Shown here piece by piece: positions 31,024-38,093 of a DNA stretch of 64,000 nucleotides. The position numbers were made by a program, and so were the translations under genes. Position 1 is the first letter of the stretch; each line of letters opens with the position of its first letter. Below the pieces are notes generated by a model that saw only the letters and a program-made list of their open reading frames with translations, was not told the origin of the DNA and made no database searches. The stretch is from Microbacterium sp. 5K110 (GTDB taxonomy: Bacteria; Actinomycetota; Actinomycetes; Actinomycetales; Microbacteriaceae), in assembly GCF_005774735.1 (NCBI RefSeq), contig NZ_VBUM01000002.1, forward strand, positions 62,001-126,000, read 5' to 3'.

Positions 31024-33111
31024 GTGGCCACCACGACGACGATCCCCTCGCCCGTTTCCCCCTGGCGCAGTGGCGCCTCGATCCCGGTGCGTCCGGTCAA
31101 ACCGACGCTCTCGACGAAGGGGGTCGTGACTCCGCGCATCCCCTTGGCGCTCCCCCATCCGCAGGTGCCGGGCGGACGGTTCCGACCGTCGGCTTTCGTC
31201 GGCGAGGCCGTCCCGTTCACCGTCACGGCCTTCCGCGAAGGGCACGACCGCATCGGCGTCCACGTACGTCTGTTCTCGCCCTCGGGCGACGAGTCCCTGC
31301 ACCGCCTGTCGCCGCTCAACGACGGCTTCGACCGGTGGAGCACCCTGGTCGCTCCGCTCGAGCAGGGCGTGTGGCGGTTCCGCTTCGAGGCGTTCGCCGA
31401 TGACTTCGCCACGTGGGAGCACGCCGCCGACGTCAAGATCGCCGCCGGCGTCGACGCGGCGCTCATGCGCGAGATGGGCGCGCAGCTGTTCGACCGCGCC
31501 CGCGGAGAGAAGAAGCGTCCCGGCAGCGACAAAGACCTGCTGTACGCCGCCGCTCGGACGCTGCGCGACCCCGACACCCACGACGACATCGCGCTCCAGG
31601 TCGTACGGGACCCCGAGATCGCGGCTCTGTTCGCCGCCCGGCCCATGATGAGCCTCGTGTCCGTCGGGAAGGACGCTGAGCTCCTCGTCGAGCGCGAGCG
31701 CGCCGGTGTGGGCGCCTGGTACGAGTTCTTCCCCCGCTCCGAGGGCGCCACGCGCGCCGAGGACGGATCCGTGATCAGCGGGACGTTCCGCACCGCCGTC
31801 GACCGACTCCCCGGCGTGGCCGGCATGGGCTTCGACGTCCTGTACCTCCCGCCGATCCACCCGATCGGCGAACGCAACCGCAAGGGTCCGAACAACACCC
31901 TCGTGACGGCCCCCGGCGACCCGGGGTCCCCGTGGGCCATCGGCGGACCGGCGGGTGGTCACGACACCGTGCACCCCGACCTCGGCACTCTCGAGGACTT
32001 CCGCGCCTTCGTCGTCGCGGCGCGTGAGAACGGCATCGAGGTCGCGCTCGACCTGGCCCTGCAGGCCTCACCCGACCACCCCTGGGTGACCGAGCACCCG
32101 GAGTGGTTCACGACCCTCCCCGACGGCTCGATCGCCTACGCCGAGAACCCGCCGAAGAAGTACCAGGACATCTACCCGGTGAACTTCGACAACGATCCCG
32201 ACGGCATCCGCGCCGAGGTCCTGCGCATCGTCCGCCACTGGATCGCCCAGGGCGTGCGCATCTTCCGCGTCGACAACCCTCACACGAAGCCCCTGCAGTT
32301 CTGGGAGTGGCTGATCGCCACGGTCAGCGCCGAAGACCCCGACGTCGTGTTCCTCGCCGAGGCCTTCACACGTCCGGCGCCGCTGCAGGGACTCGCGATG
32401 GCCGGTTTCCAGCAGAGCTACACGTACTTCACCTGGCGGAACACGAAGGAGGAGCTCGAGGAGTTCTTCGCCGGCCTCGCCCACGACACGGCCGACTTCC
32501 TGCGTCCGAACCTGTTCGTCAATACGCCCGACATCCTCACCGAGTACCTGCAGTTCGGAGGACGTCCGGCGTACAAGATCCGCGCCGCCCTCGCCGCCAC
32601 CGCGGCTCCGACGTACGGCGTCTACGCCGGCTACGAGCTGTACGAGAACGTCGCGCGTCCGGGGTCCGAAGAGAACATCGACAACGAGAAGTACGAGTAC
32701 AAATTCCGCGACTGGTCCGGTGCCGAAGCGTCCGGCGACTCCCTGGCGCCCTATCTGCGCCGACTCAACGGCATCCGCCGCGACCACCCCGCGCTGCTCC
32801 AGCTGCGCAATCTCCACGTGCAGTGGAGCGACGACGACGCCATCCTCGTCTACGCCAAGCACCTGGATGCCGCTCTGTCGCCGACCGGCGCGTCGGACAC
32901 GATCATCGTCGTGGCCAACGTCGACCCGCACTCCGCACGCGAGACGACGGTCCACCTCGACACCACGCTCTGGGGCGTCGAACCGGGCGCGCCGTTCGAG
33001 GTCGAAGACCTCGTGACCGGCCAGGTCTGGACGTGGACCGACCACAACTTCGTGCGCCTGGACGCATTCGCCGAACCCGTGCACATCCTGCACGTGAAGG
33101 AGACACGATGA
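31024..33111 (+). CDS. glgE: Alpha-1,4-glucan:maltose-1-phosphate maltosyltransferase GlgE
   Basis: A 695-residue GH13_3 enzyme that extends alpha-1,4-glucan using maltose 1-phosphate. The nucleophile is the Asp of IFRVDNPHTKPLQFW and the general acid the Glu of VFLAEAFTRP. PPIHPIGERNRKGPNN and FVNTPDILTEYLQFGG are GlgE hallmarks not shared with plain amylases. The N-terminal 40 residues are low-complexity. Its stop overlaps the glgB start (ATGA). The donor needs TreS/Pep2 or GlgC/GlgM; none of these is in the window. Confidence 0.96.
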   Translation: MATTTTIPSPVSPWRSGASIPVRPVKPTLSTKGVVTPRIPLALPHPQVPGGRFRPSAFVGEAVPFTVTAFREGHDRIGVHVRLFSPSGDESLHRLSPLNDGFDRWSTLVAPLEQGVWRFRFEAFADDFATWEHAADVKIAAGVDAALMREMGAQLFDRARGEKKRPGSDKDLLYAAARTLRDPDTHDDIALQVVRDPEIAALFAARPMMSLVSVGKDAELLVERERAGVGAWYEFFPRSEGATRAEDGSVISGTFRTAVDRLPGVAGMGFDVLYLPPIHPIGERNRKGPNNTLVTAPGDPGSPWAIGGPAGGHDTVHPDLGTLEDFRAFVVAARENGIEVALDLALQASPDHPWVTEHPEWFTTLPDGSIAYAENPPKKYQDIYPVNFDNDPDGIRAEVLRIVRHWIAQGVRIFRVDNPHTKPLQFWEWLIATVSAEDPDVVFLAEAFTRPAPLQGLAMAGFQQSYTYFTWRNTKEELEEFFAGLAHDTADFLRPNLFVNTPDILTEYLQFGGRPAYKIRAALAATAAPTYGVYAGYELYENVARPGSEENIDNEKYEYKFRDWSGAEASGDSLAPYLRRLNGIRRDHPALLQLRNLHVQWSDDDAILVYAKHLDAALSPTGASDTIIVVANVDPHSARETTVHLDTTLWGVEPGAPFEVEDLVTGQVWTWTDHNFVRLDAFAEPVHILHVKETR

Positions 33112-35246
33112 CCGCTCTTCCCCCGGAACTCCTGGATGCCGTCGCCCACGGCGCCCACCACGACCCGCACAGCGTCCTCGGCGTGCACGAGACCGCGGAC
33201 GGGTGGGTCATCCGCACGCGTCGGCCCCTCGCGCGTGAGGTGGTGGCCCGGTTCGACGACGACTCGACCCTCGCTCTCACGCACGTGCGCTCCGGCGTCT
33301 GGGAGGGACGCGTTCCCACCTCCCCCGGCCGCTACCGGGTGCACGCGACCTACGACGGCGGCGGCGACCATCTCGCCGACGACGGCTATCGCCACGCGCC
33401 GTCGGTCGGCGAGCTCGACCTGCACCTGATCTCGGAGGGGCGCCACGAAGAGCTGTGGCGCGTGCTCGGCGCGCACGTGCGCGAGCTCGACGCGTCTGCG
33501 GGCACGGCGTTCACCGTGTGGGCGCCCGACGCCCGCGCCGTGCGCGTCATCGGCGACTTCAACGGGTGGGACGGCTCGGGCAGTGCGATGCGCTCGATGG
33601 GCGGAAGCGGCGTCTGGGAGCTCTTCCTCCCCGAGGTCGGTGTCGGAGCGCGCTACAAGTTCGAGATCCTCACCCGCGCAGGAGCCTGGATCCAGAAGGC
33701 CGATCCGATGGCCCGCCTCGCCGAAGTCCCCCCGGCCACCGCCTCCGTGGTGACCGCGTCCGACTACCGCTGGGCGGACGACGAGTGGATCGAGGAGCGA
33801 TCGACCACCGCGCCGATCGACCGGCCCATGTCGATCTACGAACTGCACTTCGCGTCGTGGCGCCCGGGCCTGTCGTACCGTGACGGGGCCGACGAGATCA
33901 TCGACTACGTCACCGCCCAGGGATTCACGCACGTCGAGTTCCTCCCACTGTCCGAGCACCCGTTCGGCGGGTCGTGGGGCTATCAGGTCTCGGGCTACTA
34001 CGCCCCCACCAGCCGTTTCGGCGACCCCGACGATCTCCGGTACCTGATCGACCGTCTGCACCAAGCGGGCATCGGCGTGATCATGGACTGGGTCCCCGGT
34101 CACTTCCCCAAGGACGAGTTCGCTCTCGCGCGATTCGACGGCGAGCCGCTCTACGAGCACCCCGACCCCCGCCGCGGCGAGCACAAGGACTGGGGCACGC
34201 TCATCTTCGACTACGGCCGCAACGAGGTGCGCAACTTCCTCGTCGCCAACGCGCTGTACTGGTTCGAGGAGTTCCACGTCGACGGACTGCGCGTGGATGC
34301 CGTGGCATCCATGCTCTACCTCGACTACTCCCGCAACGACGGCGAGTGGGCCCCGAACCAGTTCGGTGGGCGCGAGAACCTCGAGGCCATCCGGTTCCTG
34401 CAGGAAGTCAACGCCACCGCGTACAAGCGATACCCGGGCATCGCCATGATCGCCGAGGAGTCGACCAGCTTCCCGGGGGTCACCGCGCCCACGGGCCACG
34501 CCGGCCTCGGGTTCGGCTTCAAGTGGAACATGGGCTGGATGAACGATTCGCTCCAGTACATCGCGCGCGACCCCATGTATCGCTCGCACCACGAGGGCGA
34601 GCTGTCGTTCTCGTTCGTGTATGCGTTCAGCGAGAACTTCATCCTCCCTATCAGCCACGACGAGGTCGTGCACGGCAAGGGGAGCCTCTTCGGGCGGATG
34701 CCGGGCGACCACTGGCAGAAGCTCGCGAACATGCGGGCGTTCCTGGCCTACATGTGGGGTCACCCCGGCAAGCAGCTGCTGTTCATGGGCCAGGAGTTCG
34801 GCCAGATGTCGGAGTGGTCGGAGTCGCGCGGTCTGGATTGGTGGATGCTCGACCAACCCTCGCACGCGCAGCTGCACTCGTTCGTCGCGGAGCTGAACCG
34901 GGTCTACCGCGCGCACGCCCCCCTGTGGTCGCGCGACCACGACGGAGCCGCGTTCTCGCGCCTGGGCGCTCCGGCGTGGAACCCCAACGTCCTCGCCTTC
35001 GCCCGCCGCGACCACCACGGCAACACGGTCGCCGTGGTGTGCAACTTCTCCGGCGTCCCGCTCGGCGACTTCCCCCTCGATCTGCCTGAGGCCGGCACGT
35101 GGACGGAAGTGCTCAACAGCGATGCCGAGGCGTTCGGCGGCTCGGGTCAGGGCAACCTCGGCTCGGTCACGACCGACGCCCGCGGGAGCGCCGTCCTCAC
35201 GGTTCCGCCGCTCGGCGTCCTCTGGCTGCACCACCGCGCCGGCTGA
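33108..35246 (+). CDS. glgB: 1,4-alpha-glucan branching enzyme
   Basis: A 712-residue GH13_9 enzyme that makes alpha-1,6 branches. It has two N-terminal beta domains (a GlgB-N domain to about 110, then CBM48 with GTAFTVWAPDARAVRVIGDFNGW). The barrel carries the nucleophile in VDGLRVDAVASMLYLDYSR, the acid in MIAEESTSFPG, and the histidine in ISHDEVVHGKGS. Length is normal for this family. Translation is coupled to glgE, so chain extension by GlgE and branching by GlgB are made together. Confidence 0.98.
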   Translation: MTALPPELLDAVAHGAHHDPHSVLGVHETADGWVIRTRRPLAREVVARFDDDSTLALTHVRSGVWEGRVPTSPGRYRVHATYDGGGDHLADDGYRHAPSVGELDLHLISEGRHEELWRVLGAHVRELDASAGTAFTVWAPDARAVRVIGDFNGWDGSGSAMRSMGGSGVWELFLPEVGVGARYKFEILTRAGAWIQKADPMARLAEVPPATASVVTASDYRWADDEWIEERSTTAPIDRPMSIYELHFASWRPGLSYRDGADEIIDYVTAQGFTHVEFLPLSEHPFGGSWGYQVSGYYAPTSRFGDPDDLRYLIDRLHQAGIGVIMDWVPGHFPKDEFALARFDGEPLYEHPDPRRGEHKDWGTLIFDYGRNEVRNFLVANALYWFEEFHVDGLRVDAVASMLYLDYSRNDGEWAPNQFGGRENLEAIRFLQEVNATAYKRYPGIAMIAEESTSFPGVTAPTGHAGLGFGFKWNMGWMNDSLQYIARDPMYRSHHEGELSFSFVYAFSENFILPISHDEVVHGKGSLFGRMPGDHWQKLANMRAFLAYMWGHPGKQLLFMGQEFGQMSEWSESRGLDWWMLDQPSHAQLHSFVAELNRVYRAHAPLWSRDHDGAAFSRLGAPAWNPNVLAFARRDHHGNTVAVVCNFSGVPLGDFPLDLPEAGTWTEVLNSDAEAFGGSGQGNLGSVTTDARGSAVLTVPPLGVLWLHHRAG

Positions 35247-35304: not shown

Positions 35305-36240
35305 TCAGAACAAGAGGGATGCCAGGCGCGAACGAGCCCGGATGACGCGGGCGTCCTCATCGCCGACGAGACCGAAGAGCTCCAGCAGGCGCTCACGCAC
35401 CGGGGCACGACTCTCGGACGGCAGCGAGGCGAACAGGTCGAGCAGCCGCGCGAAGGCGTCGTCGACGTGTCCGCCGGCGACGTCGAGGTCGGCCACGAGG
35501 AACTGGGCCTCGAAGTCGGTCGGTGCCGCGGCTGCGGCGGCCCGTGCGGCCTGCAGATCGGCACCCTGCACGCGGTCGAGCAGCCGCACCTGACCGAGCC
35601 CGGCGCGCGCGTCGGCGTCGCGGGGGTTCTCTTCGAGGGCGCGCTCGTAGGCCGCGATGGCGCGGGGGTAGTCGCCCTCTTCGATGGCGGCGAACGCTTC
35701 GGCATGCAGGGGCGGCAGAGGGGTCTCGGCGGGTTCCTCCGCGGCGTCCTCCGCACCCTCGACGGGCACCGTACCGGTGACGCCGTGCTGCGCGGCGAGC
35801 TGCAGCAGCTGGGCGAACACCTCGCGCACCTGCTGTTCGGGGACCGCGCCGGTGAACAGCGGCACGGGCTGACCGGCCACGAGGGCCACGACCATGGGGA
35901 TGGACTGCGCGCGGAAGCCCTGAGCGAGCTGCGGGTTGGCGTCGACGTCGACCTTCGCCAGCACGACCTTGCCCGCCAGCTCGGTGACGACCTTCTCGAG
36001 AACAGGGCTCAGTTGCTTGCACGGGCCGCACCACTCGGCCCACAGGTCGACGACGACCGGCACGCTGCGTGAGAGCTCAAGGACCTGAGGGAACGACGCG
36101 TCGGTGACGTCGGACACCAGCGACGCAGGAGCAGCCGCGGACGCACCTGCGGCGGACTCGGCGGGCGGCTGCGGACGGTTGCGCAGCGACGACAGGTCGA
36201 CGGCGCCGCGCAGGACGGATCCGGGGGTGGGAGTGCTCAC
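35305..36240 (-). CDS. Thioredoxin/tetratricopeptide co-chaperone (CnoX-like)
   Basis: A 311-residue cytoplasmic protein with a thioredoxin domain (about 40-150) followed by TPR-like helices. The active site is WAEWCGPCKQL, Cys71 and Cys74. The TPR part includes DYPRAIAAYERALEENPRDADARAGLGQ. E. coli CnoX (YbbN) has the same two-part design and protects folding substrates from oxidation; here the CxxC is the standard CGPC, so redox activity is likely too. Translation starts on GTG 36240, overlapping the upstream membrane protein gene (GTGA). Confidence 0.88.
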   Translation of the reverse strand: MSTPTPGSVLRGAVDLSSLRNRPQPPAESAAGASAAAPASLVSDVTDASFPQVLELSRSVPVVVDLWAEWCGPCKQLSPVLEKVVTELAGKVVLAKVDVDANPQLAQGFRAQSIPMVVALVAGQPVPLFTGAVPEQQVREVFAQLLQLAAQHGVTGTVPVEGAEDAAEEPAETPLPPLHAEAFAAIEEGDYPRAIAAYERALEENPRDADARAGLGQVRLLDRVQGADLQAARAAAAAAPTDFEAQFLVADLDVAGGHVDDAFARLLDLFASLPSESRAPVRERLLELFGLVGDEDARVIRARSRLASLLF

Positions 36241-38039
36241 GGGGACACCTTCGCTTCGAGGAGGCTGGAACGGTAGCCCAGGAGCCGGATCTTGTCGTCC
36301 GATCCCTGGCTGGGCACGTAGAAGAAGATCTGGTCGGAGTAGGTCGTGGTGAAGCCCGTCGCCGACTGGTCGACGCCGGTCAGTGCCTTCACCGCGGGGT
36401 TGTTGTCGAGCTTGATGACGGCATCCGCGTTCGTCGGCTTGGCGGTGTCGCTCTCGTATACATTCACCGCGACGATCGCACCGGTGTCGAGAGTCGCGAG
36501 GGCGATGGGCGACGCGGGGCCCGCGGAAGCCGCGAAGCTGATCTCGGCGGTGCCCTGGCCCGTCTGGTTCAGCTCATCCGTGCGCTTGCGCTTGTTGTCC
36601 TCGATCGCCGGCAGGAGCAGGTCGTTCGCAGTGTCGAACAAAGCCCACGACGCGCTGTTCTGACCGTTGTTGATCAGATCGGCGTACGCCGCGGCCACCT
36701 TGTCCGGGGCCATGACGAGGAATGAGGAGTCCGGCGGCACCTGCGTCGCCCCCACGTAAGGAGCGGCCAGTTCCGGCAGGTTTGTGGATGCCTCGAGGTT
36801 GCCGATGTACGACACGCGGTACTCCGACCACGGGTCGTCCTGAGTCATCATCATGATCGACGTCGTGGGGGCGGCGGTGTCGCCGGACTCGACCACGGTC
36901 ATCACGGTGCGCGGCCAGCCGCCCGTCGTCTGCGGCAGGATGATCTGCACCGGATCCGCGGGAATCGCCGGAAGCGCCGGGCGATCCGGGAGGGCGGCGC
37001 GCAGGGTGTAGTTGGTCTTGCGCTCGGCCAGGGCCGGTCCGGTCAGGCGCGTCTCGGCCGCGGCGACGTCGAGGGCGGCGTCGGCCTGGCCCACGGTCGT
37101 GGCGATGCGCGAGACGATGCTCTCGGCCTGCGACTCGGTGACCACGGGCGGGAACTGTCCCTCGGGCACGATGACGGTAGGTGTCGGACTGGGGCTCTCG
37201 CTCGCAGCGAGCTGAGGCCAGGCGTCCGCGGAGCAGCCGGCGAACAGAGCCGCCGACAGACCCAGCGCCGGGACGGCGATCAATACACGGCGCTGGGGTC
37301 CCCACGGCCGGCGGCCCCGAGCATCCGGCGACGAGCTGATCACGCCCTTCTCAGCGGCGTCGGCATCGGCGATCGAGATCGGTTCGGTGACCGGCAGGGG
37401 CAAGCCCTTGCGGCGCGGGCGGCGCGATCGCCGGACGTGTCGGATGCCGAGCAGATACAGCACGATGCCCGCGAGGAGCGCGACGGCTCCCCCGGCGATC
37501 AACGGCCCCGCCCACGGAGTCGAGTTGTCGATGGGCCACGTGAGCGTGACGTCGGAAGGGGCCGGAGCGGTCCCGTCGCTCGCGACGAGCACACTCATGT
37601 CGGCCGGCAACTGCAGCGTCGTCGCGAGCGATCCGGTCTGCTGGAACTCATCGAGCCACAGGTCGGAGCCCGCGGGTGTGCGTGCGGCGGTCGCCTCTGT
37701 CGCGGGGCTCGTGGTCGACGCGCGCACGAGACCCGTCGCGACGGCGTTCTCGGCACCGAGCGTCACGGCCGTGTAGGGGACGTCGGCGAGCCAGGCCCGC
37801 ATGTCGGCGGTGCGACCGTACGAGACGAAGACCTCGCCGTCGCCGACCACGCGGAGCGATTGCGCCCCCGGCAGGCTGCCGAGGACCGCGCCGTCGATCA
37901 GCGTGTACGCCGTCGAACCGTCGGTCTGAATCGTCTCCGTGGCCTCGGAAGGCCCCTGGAAGACGGTGCGCTGAGCGATGCCCGCGCCGATCATGGCAGC
38001 GGCGATGACGAACGCCACCACGGCCCAGACGAATCTCAC
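36237..38039 (-). CDS. Large membrane protein of unknown function with internal lipobox
   Basis: About 600 residues, no recognised family. A first TM helix (residues 4-22) leads to an external domain of about 150 residues. A second TM helix (177-198) is followed by a very basic cytoplasmic stretch (RHVRRSRRPRRKG) and an acidic loop. A third hydrophobic segment (252-268) ends in LFAGC with Cys269, exactly like a lipoprotein signal peptide. A Pro/Ser/Thr linker and a 300-residue external domain follow. An in-frame GTG at 37343 could start the last part alone. Start choice is uncertain (GTG 38039, GTG 38048 or ATG 38051). Coupled to the thioredoxin/TPR gene. Confidence 0.75.
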   Translation of the reverse strand: MRFVWAVVAFVIAAAMIGAGIAQRTVFQGPSEATETIQTDGSTAYTLIDGAVLGSLPGAQSLRVVGDGEVFVSYGRTADMRAWLADVPYTAVTLGAENAVATGLVRASTTSPATEATAARTPAGSDLWLDEFQQTGSLATTLQLPADMSVLVASDGTAPAPSDVTLTWPIDNSTPWAGPLIAGGAVALLAGIVLYLLGIRHVRRSRRPRRKGLPLPVTEPISIADADAAEKGVISSSPDARGRRPWGPQRRVLIAVPALGLSAALFAGCSADAWPQLAASESPSPTPTVIVPEGQFPPVVTESQAESIVSRIATTVGQADAALDVAAAETRLTGPALAERKTNYTLRAALPDRPALPAIPADPVQIILPQTTGGWPRTVMTVVESGDTAAPTTSIMMMTQDDPWSEYRVSYIGNLEASTNLPELAAPYVGATQVPPDSSFLVMAPDKVAAAYADLINNGQNSASWALFDTANDLLLPAIEDNKRKRTDELNQTGQGTAEISFAASAGPASPIALATLDTGAIVAVNVYESDTAKPTNADAVIKLDNNPAVKALTGVDQSATGFTTTYSDQIFFYVPSQGSDDKIRLLGYRSSLLEAKVSP

Positions 38040-38093
38040 GCTACACACCATCCCCACCGGCGACTCGGGCGGCCACCGAAGAATCGACGTTTC

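Follow-up and report, generated by a model that had tools for sequence, protein, structure and literature searches.

A gene on the minus strand of a 64,000-nucleotide stretch of DNA from Microbacterium sp. 5K110 (the window; contig NZ_VBUM01000002.1, positions 62,001 to 126,000) joins in one reading frame a membrane protein and a lipoprotein that are encoded by two genes in some relatives. Comparison with these relatives shows that it arose by the fusion of two genes that were once separate and overlapped. Its product is probably a polyprotein which, judging from its sequence, would be lipidated and cut by the signal peptidase LspA at an internal signal peptide, the third transmembrane (TM) helix, to give a membrane fragment and a lipid-anchored lipoprotein. 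The comparison also shows that an internal translation start is not conserved, and that in a sister family (f6 below) the site has been swapped for an apparent signal peptidase I (SPase I) site.

The open reading frame at 36237-38057 is present on the minus strand, a strand that the earlier note had left unstated. Within it, GTG 38039 is probably the start codon common to the relatives, because the frames of seven of the nine closest fetched ones (L002 and L005-L010) open one codon ahead of it; it also fits the numbering in which the lipobox cysteine is residue 269. The closest named relatives are Microbacterium testaceum FXH-28, Microbacterium sp. CSI-V and M. enclense ZYFD042 (91%, 90% and 89%, respectively, over the best segment). 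The earlier note, made from the letters of the window, had described two TM helices, a basic stretch, a third hydrophobic segment ending ALFAGC with an internal lipobox at residue 269, a Pro/Ser/Thr linker and a soluble domain. All of these are present: hydropathy gives three hydrophobic segments, the third of which terminates AALFAGC, and the basic stretch ahead of it reads RRSRRPRRKG. From the predicted topology, TM1 is expected to be oriented N-in. The elements of a lipoprotein signal, namely a basic n-region, a hydrophobic core and a lipobox, are found (LFAGC behind RR...), but not at the N-terminus, where such a signal usually stands; this one begins at about residue 252 and follows two TM helices. 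The features are as follows.

36237..38039, minus strand: fused gene, 600 amino acids, with GTG start at 38039 and TGA stop at 36237-36239
37965..38036, minus strand: TM1, residues 2-25 (hydropathy; helix 2-25 in the structure model)
37512..37964, minus strand: predicted extracytoplasmic beta-sandwich (jelly-roll-like) domain, residues 26-176 (structure model; weak fold matches)
37425..37511, minus strand: TM2, residues 177-205 (hydropathy and structure model)
37287..37424, minus strand: predicted basic cytoplasmic linker, residues 206-251, of low model confidence (structure model)
37236..37286, minus strand: TM3, the putative hydrophobic core of the internal signal peptide, with lipobox LFAG, residues 252-268 (hydropathy and homologue comparison)
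37233..37235, minus strand: lipobox Cys269, the sole cysteine in the protein (sequence and homologue comparison)
37149..37232, minus strand: Ser/Pro/Thr-rich linker, residues 270-297 (sequence)
36789..37148, minus strand: NTF2/cystatin-like domain 1, residues 298-417 (predicted fold match)
36240..36707, minus strand: second alpha+beta domain, residues 445-600, which may also be NTF2-like (predicted fold, weak)
37341..37343, minus strand: in-frame GTG at residue 233, the suggested alternative start, which is not conserved (relatives' codons)
35305..36240, minus strand: downstream gene for a thioredoxin and tetratricopeptide repeat (TPR) protein, a conserved neighbour with a four-nucleotide overlap (GTGA) with the fused gene

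The protein was detected in 58 of 59 genomes of the same genus, 149 of 150 in the family sample and 231 of 297 in the order sample, and the profile of its C-terminal (C) domain matched 43 of 197 genomes in the class sample. Family samples centred elsewhere gave 41/41 genomes in f7, 70/80 in f6 and 11/13 in f8, where f1 is the window gene's own family and f2, f3 and so on are numbered labels for other families. After removal of identical sequences, 198 distinct fused frames were compared (185 from f1, eight from f6, four from f7 and one from f8). A further 25 matched genomes of the same-genus sample and six of the family sample lie outside the fetched loci, the 25 having open frames of 509-721 amino acids.

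Conservation of Cys269 among homologues was the check that the earlier note had proposed, and a [GAS]-Cys motif stands at the same place after TM3 in 181 of the 198 fused frames (f1 176/185, f6 0/8, f7 4/4, f8 1/1), which makes the pattern in the window protein more than a coincidence. A wider f7 sample, three of whose genomes had already been counted, has the lipobox cysteine in 30/30 fused frames. Of 40 named loci, one (L262) is truncated at the end of its contig; the other 39, of which L289 and L291 are partly cut, carry the two halves in a single frame, and each of them has the cysteine (38 by pattern and L289, which reads TTGC, by eye). Thirty-six of these 39 loci are titled Microbacterium, Plantibacter or Microbacteriaceae, the titles of the other three being less specific. 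The commonest boxes among the 181 frames that keep the cysteine are LSGC (47), LAGC (39) and LTGC (29), and the 25 residues ahead of the hydrophobic core have a mean net charge of +6.2 in f1. The cysteine stands out because the stretch between the N-terminal (N) domain and TM3 is so variable: it measures 17-245 amino acids, with 46 different lengths among the 198 frames, and the reading frame is kept throughout. Loci L072-L075, from f1 genomes, carry approximately 135-215 extra residues here with the frame intact. A disulfide role for Cys269 was considered and rejected as unlikely, because the lipobox cysteine is usually the only one (165 of the 181 lipobox-bearing proteins); 14 of the 17 fused proteins lacking a lipobox have no cysteine at all. 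The lipobox cysteine is conserved, yet it is not invariant, being absent from all 48 f6 frames read and from 9/185 f1 frames.

The ancestry of the gene can be read from 226 loci across the order (some genomes being represented twice); the two halves share one frame in 205 of them but not in the other 21. The 21 comprise 18 true pairs of adjacent genes, two loci at contig edges (L016 and L115) and one with a frame change (L078). The split loci span nine families of the order (f2, f3, f4, f8, f9, f13, f14, f15 and f20), and in them a gene for a TM-beta domain-TM protein is followed by a gene for a lipoprotein with an N-terminal signal. In the 17 split loci where the start of the lipoprotein could be scored, the start codon lies 19-43 residues ahead of the cysteine and always has a Shine-Dalgarno (SD) match of at least 4 (at least 5 in 13/17); relative to the end of the first gene, it falls from four bases before to one base after, with a four-base overlap in 14/17. 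Farther out, seven loci (f5, f18 and other families of the class) are likewise split, and f37 has 12 loci with a separate C gene, inside which the N half was not detected. In a tree of 69 C domains, the fused rows of f1, f6 and f7 form one clade (support 96/88) and a second, separate fused row falls in f8; the third label change comes from row L115, at a contig edge. The f8 fusion is known from a single genome, G371 (90% complete), and because the other f8 genomes read have split genes, a second independent origin of the fusion is possible on this tree though unproven.

That the fusion is an artefact of annotation or assembly has next to no probability. Isolated odd cases of this kind do occur, namely the contig-edge loci L016, L115 and L262, and L078 (G090:C13), in which a segment of approximately 20 residues is present twice and the frame change is probably an assembly error; the apparent split of L115, from f7 genome G450, was dismissed as an effect of the contig edge. 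Against an artefact, one open frame is common to approximately 200 genomes of the family plus those of f6 and f7, and the explanation was rejected on these family-wide frames.

Two products could also be made by internal initiation, the fused frame then being incidental. The earlier note had raised GTG 37343 as a start at which the lipoprotein would form a distinct gene; this codon is indeed in frame, and L003 and L257 have it too. Internal initiation would further agree with the split relatives, whose two genes have their own starts, and with f7 locus L380 (G689:C11, at approximately 2900-2950), which is split again and has GGAGG eight bases ahead of a GTG start that overlaps with the first gene's end. 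However, L002, L258, L264, L004 and L016 have another valine codon, not a start codon, in place of GTG 37343, and a separate gene starting there was rejected because the codon is not conserved in relatives. Nor is there an excess of start and SD signals upstream of TM3: in 72 of the 198 fused genes the 30 codons ahead of the helix contain no ATG, GTG or TTG, and a start with an SD match of at least 5 is found in 8/198, compared with 7, 18, 9 and 31 of 198 for four control windows within those genes. A general internal-start model was rejected since its signals do not rise above these controls. Moreover, the frame is preserved across 46 linker lengths, something that separate translation would not call for. 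We consider internal initiation very unlikely.

Evidence for a processed polyprotein also comes from relatives that have lost the lipobox. In f6 the lipobox is absent in 48/48 distinct fused frames read, and TM3 ends instead in SPase-I-like sites (PAQA, PAHA, PASA and similar). An AxA motif follows the helix in 42 of the 47 f6 frames in which the helix could be located, against a mean of 27.2 and a maximum of 37 in 1000 shuffles of the same residues; for PAxA the count is 22/47, against a mean of 5.3 and a maximum of 12. The nine f1 frames lacking the cysteine fall, on a reading by eye, in four or five places on the C-domain tree; in eight of them AxA lies inside the interval tested, and in the ninth (L203) there is AVA at the edge of that interval. 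After its TM helix the window protein has a lipobox rather than an internal SPase I site, whereas the f6 relatives fit the latter in sequence. The simplest reading of these patterns is that in every one of the lineages TM3 serves as a cleavable signal peptide, which LspA would cut in most and SPase I in some.

Alternatively, the protein might remain uncut, with three TM helices, its C-terminal domain tethered by TM3 and Cys269 either unmodified or only lipidated. TM3 has the hydrophobicity needed for a membrane-spanning helix, and the family members that have lost the cysteine would be accommodated. A plain anchor, though, would require neither a lipobox nor an SPase-I-like site; the lipobox pattern, beyond mere hydrophobicity, is kept behind highly divergent linkers, and in f6 SPase-I-like sites replace the lost lipobox. 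An uncut protein is in our judgement unlikely.

Some observations weigh against a lipidated and cleaved polyprotein. TM3 is modelled as a mere 11-residue helix, at low confidence. The cysteine has been lost in 9/185 frames of the window's own family, and because of this loss lipidation would seem dispensable in those nine. Among the first 17 frames found without the cysteine, AxA occurs in 15, which is not above alanine-rich shuffles (mean 11.6, maximum 15), and the excess over shuffles is visible solely in the enlarged f6 set. One of the 41 f7 genomes searched, G689, carries the re-split gene of L380, with the lipoprotein given its own start, so that the fusion appears dispensable; unless it is a sequencing error, this case illustrates a separate start and suggests that the halves are able to work apart. 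Finally, the titles, abstract openings and passages seen in full-text searches of open-licence papers contain no published internal LspA cut. The suggestion that Lgt and LspA act internally, already made in the earlier note, nonetheless gains from the conservation of the cysteine, the split-gene ancestry and the exchange for SPase-I-like sites, while the cleavage and lipidation are steps that we infer. For the wider group, we lean towards a natural polyprotein family that was fused at least once and possibly twice (the f1, f6 and f7 clade and one f8 genome), in which the internal signal is the processing site and, by the tree, passed from LspA to SPase I approximately five times.

The proposed sequence of events is as follows. 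A single polyprotein would be made from the fused gene, and TM1 and TM2 would be inserted co-translationally, placing the basic linker in the cytoplasm. TM3 would then run from inside to outside, as the former lipoprotein signal peptide did. Lgt would lipidate Cys269, after which LspA would cut ahead of it; in some relatives SPase I probably cuts instead. The products would be a three-helix membrane fragment and, in equal amount, a separate lipid-anchored lipoprotein with a putative tandem NTF2-like domain, and the two fragments would probably remain bound to each other at the outer face. Lipidation, cleavage, a stable complex and a role in the envelope are all inferred here. The genome has, among Pfam matches over the cut-off, one Lgt and three LspA homologues (PF01252), the latter at C113:116856-117281, C103:214-630 and C89:92634-93041.

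A full-length AlphaFold model, based on a 105-row alignment, has a mean predicted local distance difference test score (pLDDT) of 90.2 and a predicted template modelling score (pTM) of 0.83, and is poorly defined from approximately residue 205 through TM3 to approximately residue 280. A pTM this high for two ordered halves suggests contact between them, and the halves may be packed against each other. Modelled alone, the C domain has a pLDDT of 92.6 and its first half is predicted to be NTF2/cystatin-like. The predicted fold gives Z scores of 5.7-9.6 against NTF2-like and cystatin-like rows, with no convincing sequence match. For the first half the best match is the intermembrane-space domain of PARC6 (Z 9.6, root-mean-square deviation 2.9 A over 116 residues), and the second alpha+beta domain matches DotI weakly (Z 5.8). 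The likeness to the ARC6/PARC6 domain, which we take to have an NTF2-like fold, is at the level of fold only, with 10% identity, and no function is transferred from it.

Pfam has no match for the C half of the window protein. In NCBIfam, the C half aligns to positions 25-317 of the 320 of NF053531 (SCO2278 family lipoprotein), with E 1e-16 and 60.7 bits for the whole protein and E 1.9e-17 and 63.1 bits for the domain, well below the cut-off of 210; 21 of 24 members of alignment A2 match NF053531 at E 0.1 or better. By this profile match the C half reads as a lipoprotein distantly related to SCO2278, and it differs from that family in that the domain sits behind two TM helices and the signal is internal. 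In the literature search SCO2278 came up in a single paper, in the legend of a figure. No convincing family was found for the N domain in Pfam or NCBIfam, the matches being scattered and weak, and fold comparison likewise gave weak matches only. The N half is similar in its TM-beta ectodomain-TM layout to CDC50A, the two-TM subunit of P4 flippases (Z 8.1-8.6, with 1.8 A over 60 residues or 8.2 A over 136), with no sequence match, and this may be just a common arrangement. Close to the fused gene, a second, distant N-domain-like match (E 6e-12 to 3e-4) is present at G212:C1:498424-499059 and in ten other f7 genomes (G287, G450, G460, G488, G676, G678, G680, G681, G683 and G691); it is possibly a paralogue of the membrane half.

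Coupling to the thioredoxin-TPR gene, which the earlier note had also pointed out, is borne out by the GTGA overlap and by the neighbourhood of relatives: this gene follows in 196 of 198 fused loci and in 19/19 loci scored as split, contig-edge L115 included. Past its end, on the opposite strand, open reading frames at 31024-35246 resemble, by eye, GlgE and GlgB of glycogen/maltosyl-phosphate metabolism. Our guess is that the complex acts in envelope assembly or quality control; the thioredoxin-TPR neighbour is predicted to be cytoplasmic. An RRx(hydrophobic)(hydrophobic) pattern stands beside the TM3 core in 93 of 198 fused frames, against a mean of 26.7 and a maximum of 38 in shuffles, and in none of the eight f6 frames. 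The positive-inside rule may explain much of this excess. The split f3 gene of L108 reads TTRRTFLAGG, which is Tat-like (twin-arginine translocation). Passages of PMC9360617 discuss help from Tat for three-TM actinobacterial Rieske proteins, and by analogy comparable assistance for TM3 is a possibility.

In FbcH, the Bradyrhizobium precursor in which cytochromes b and c1 are fused, an internal signal peptide is cut by signal peptidase; the literature search gave no paper on it. It shares with the window gene a gene fusion in which the second half brings an internal signal, and differs in that the cut is of SPase I type and the proteins are unrelated. A second precedent is LtaS of Staphylococcus aureus, a polytopic protein which, in the passages seen of PMC10865820, is cut by SpsB between Ala217 and Ser218 with release of the extracellular domain. 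In terms of those passages, the proposed processing has in common with it a multi-TM protein and an internal signal peptidase site, while LtaS is cut by SpsB and not LspA, is one protein and not a two-gene fusion, and acquires no lipid anchor; no homology is claimed. Anaplasma VirB6-3 and VirB6-4 are predicted lipoproteins with several TM domains, and the passages of PMC7648143 that describe them do not place their lipobox internally.

If the proposal is true, the lipoprotein described here would, to our knowledge, be the first known whose maturation starts from a signal peptide inside the chain. Searches for lipoprotein signals normally look at N-termini, and lipoproteins inside polytopic proteins could for this reason escape standard predictors. 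The system poses the questions of whether Lgt and LspA can act on a signal formed by a membrane protein's third helix, and of why a lineage should trade two coupled genes for one that needs cleavage. A processed polyprotein found family-wide, and apparently cut by LspA or SPase I at the same site, would be a clean natural test system.

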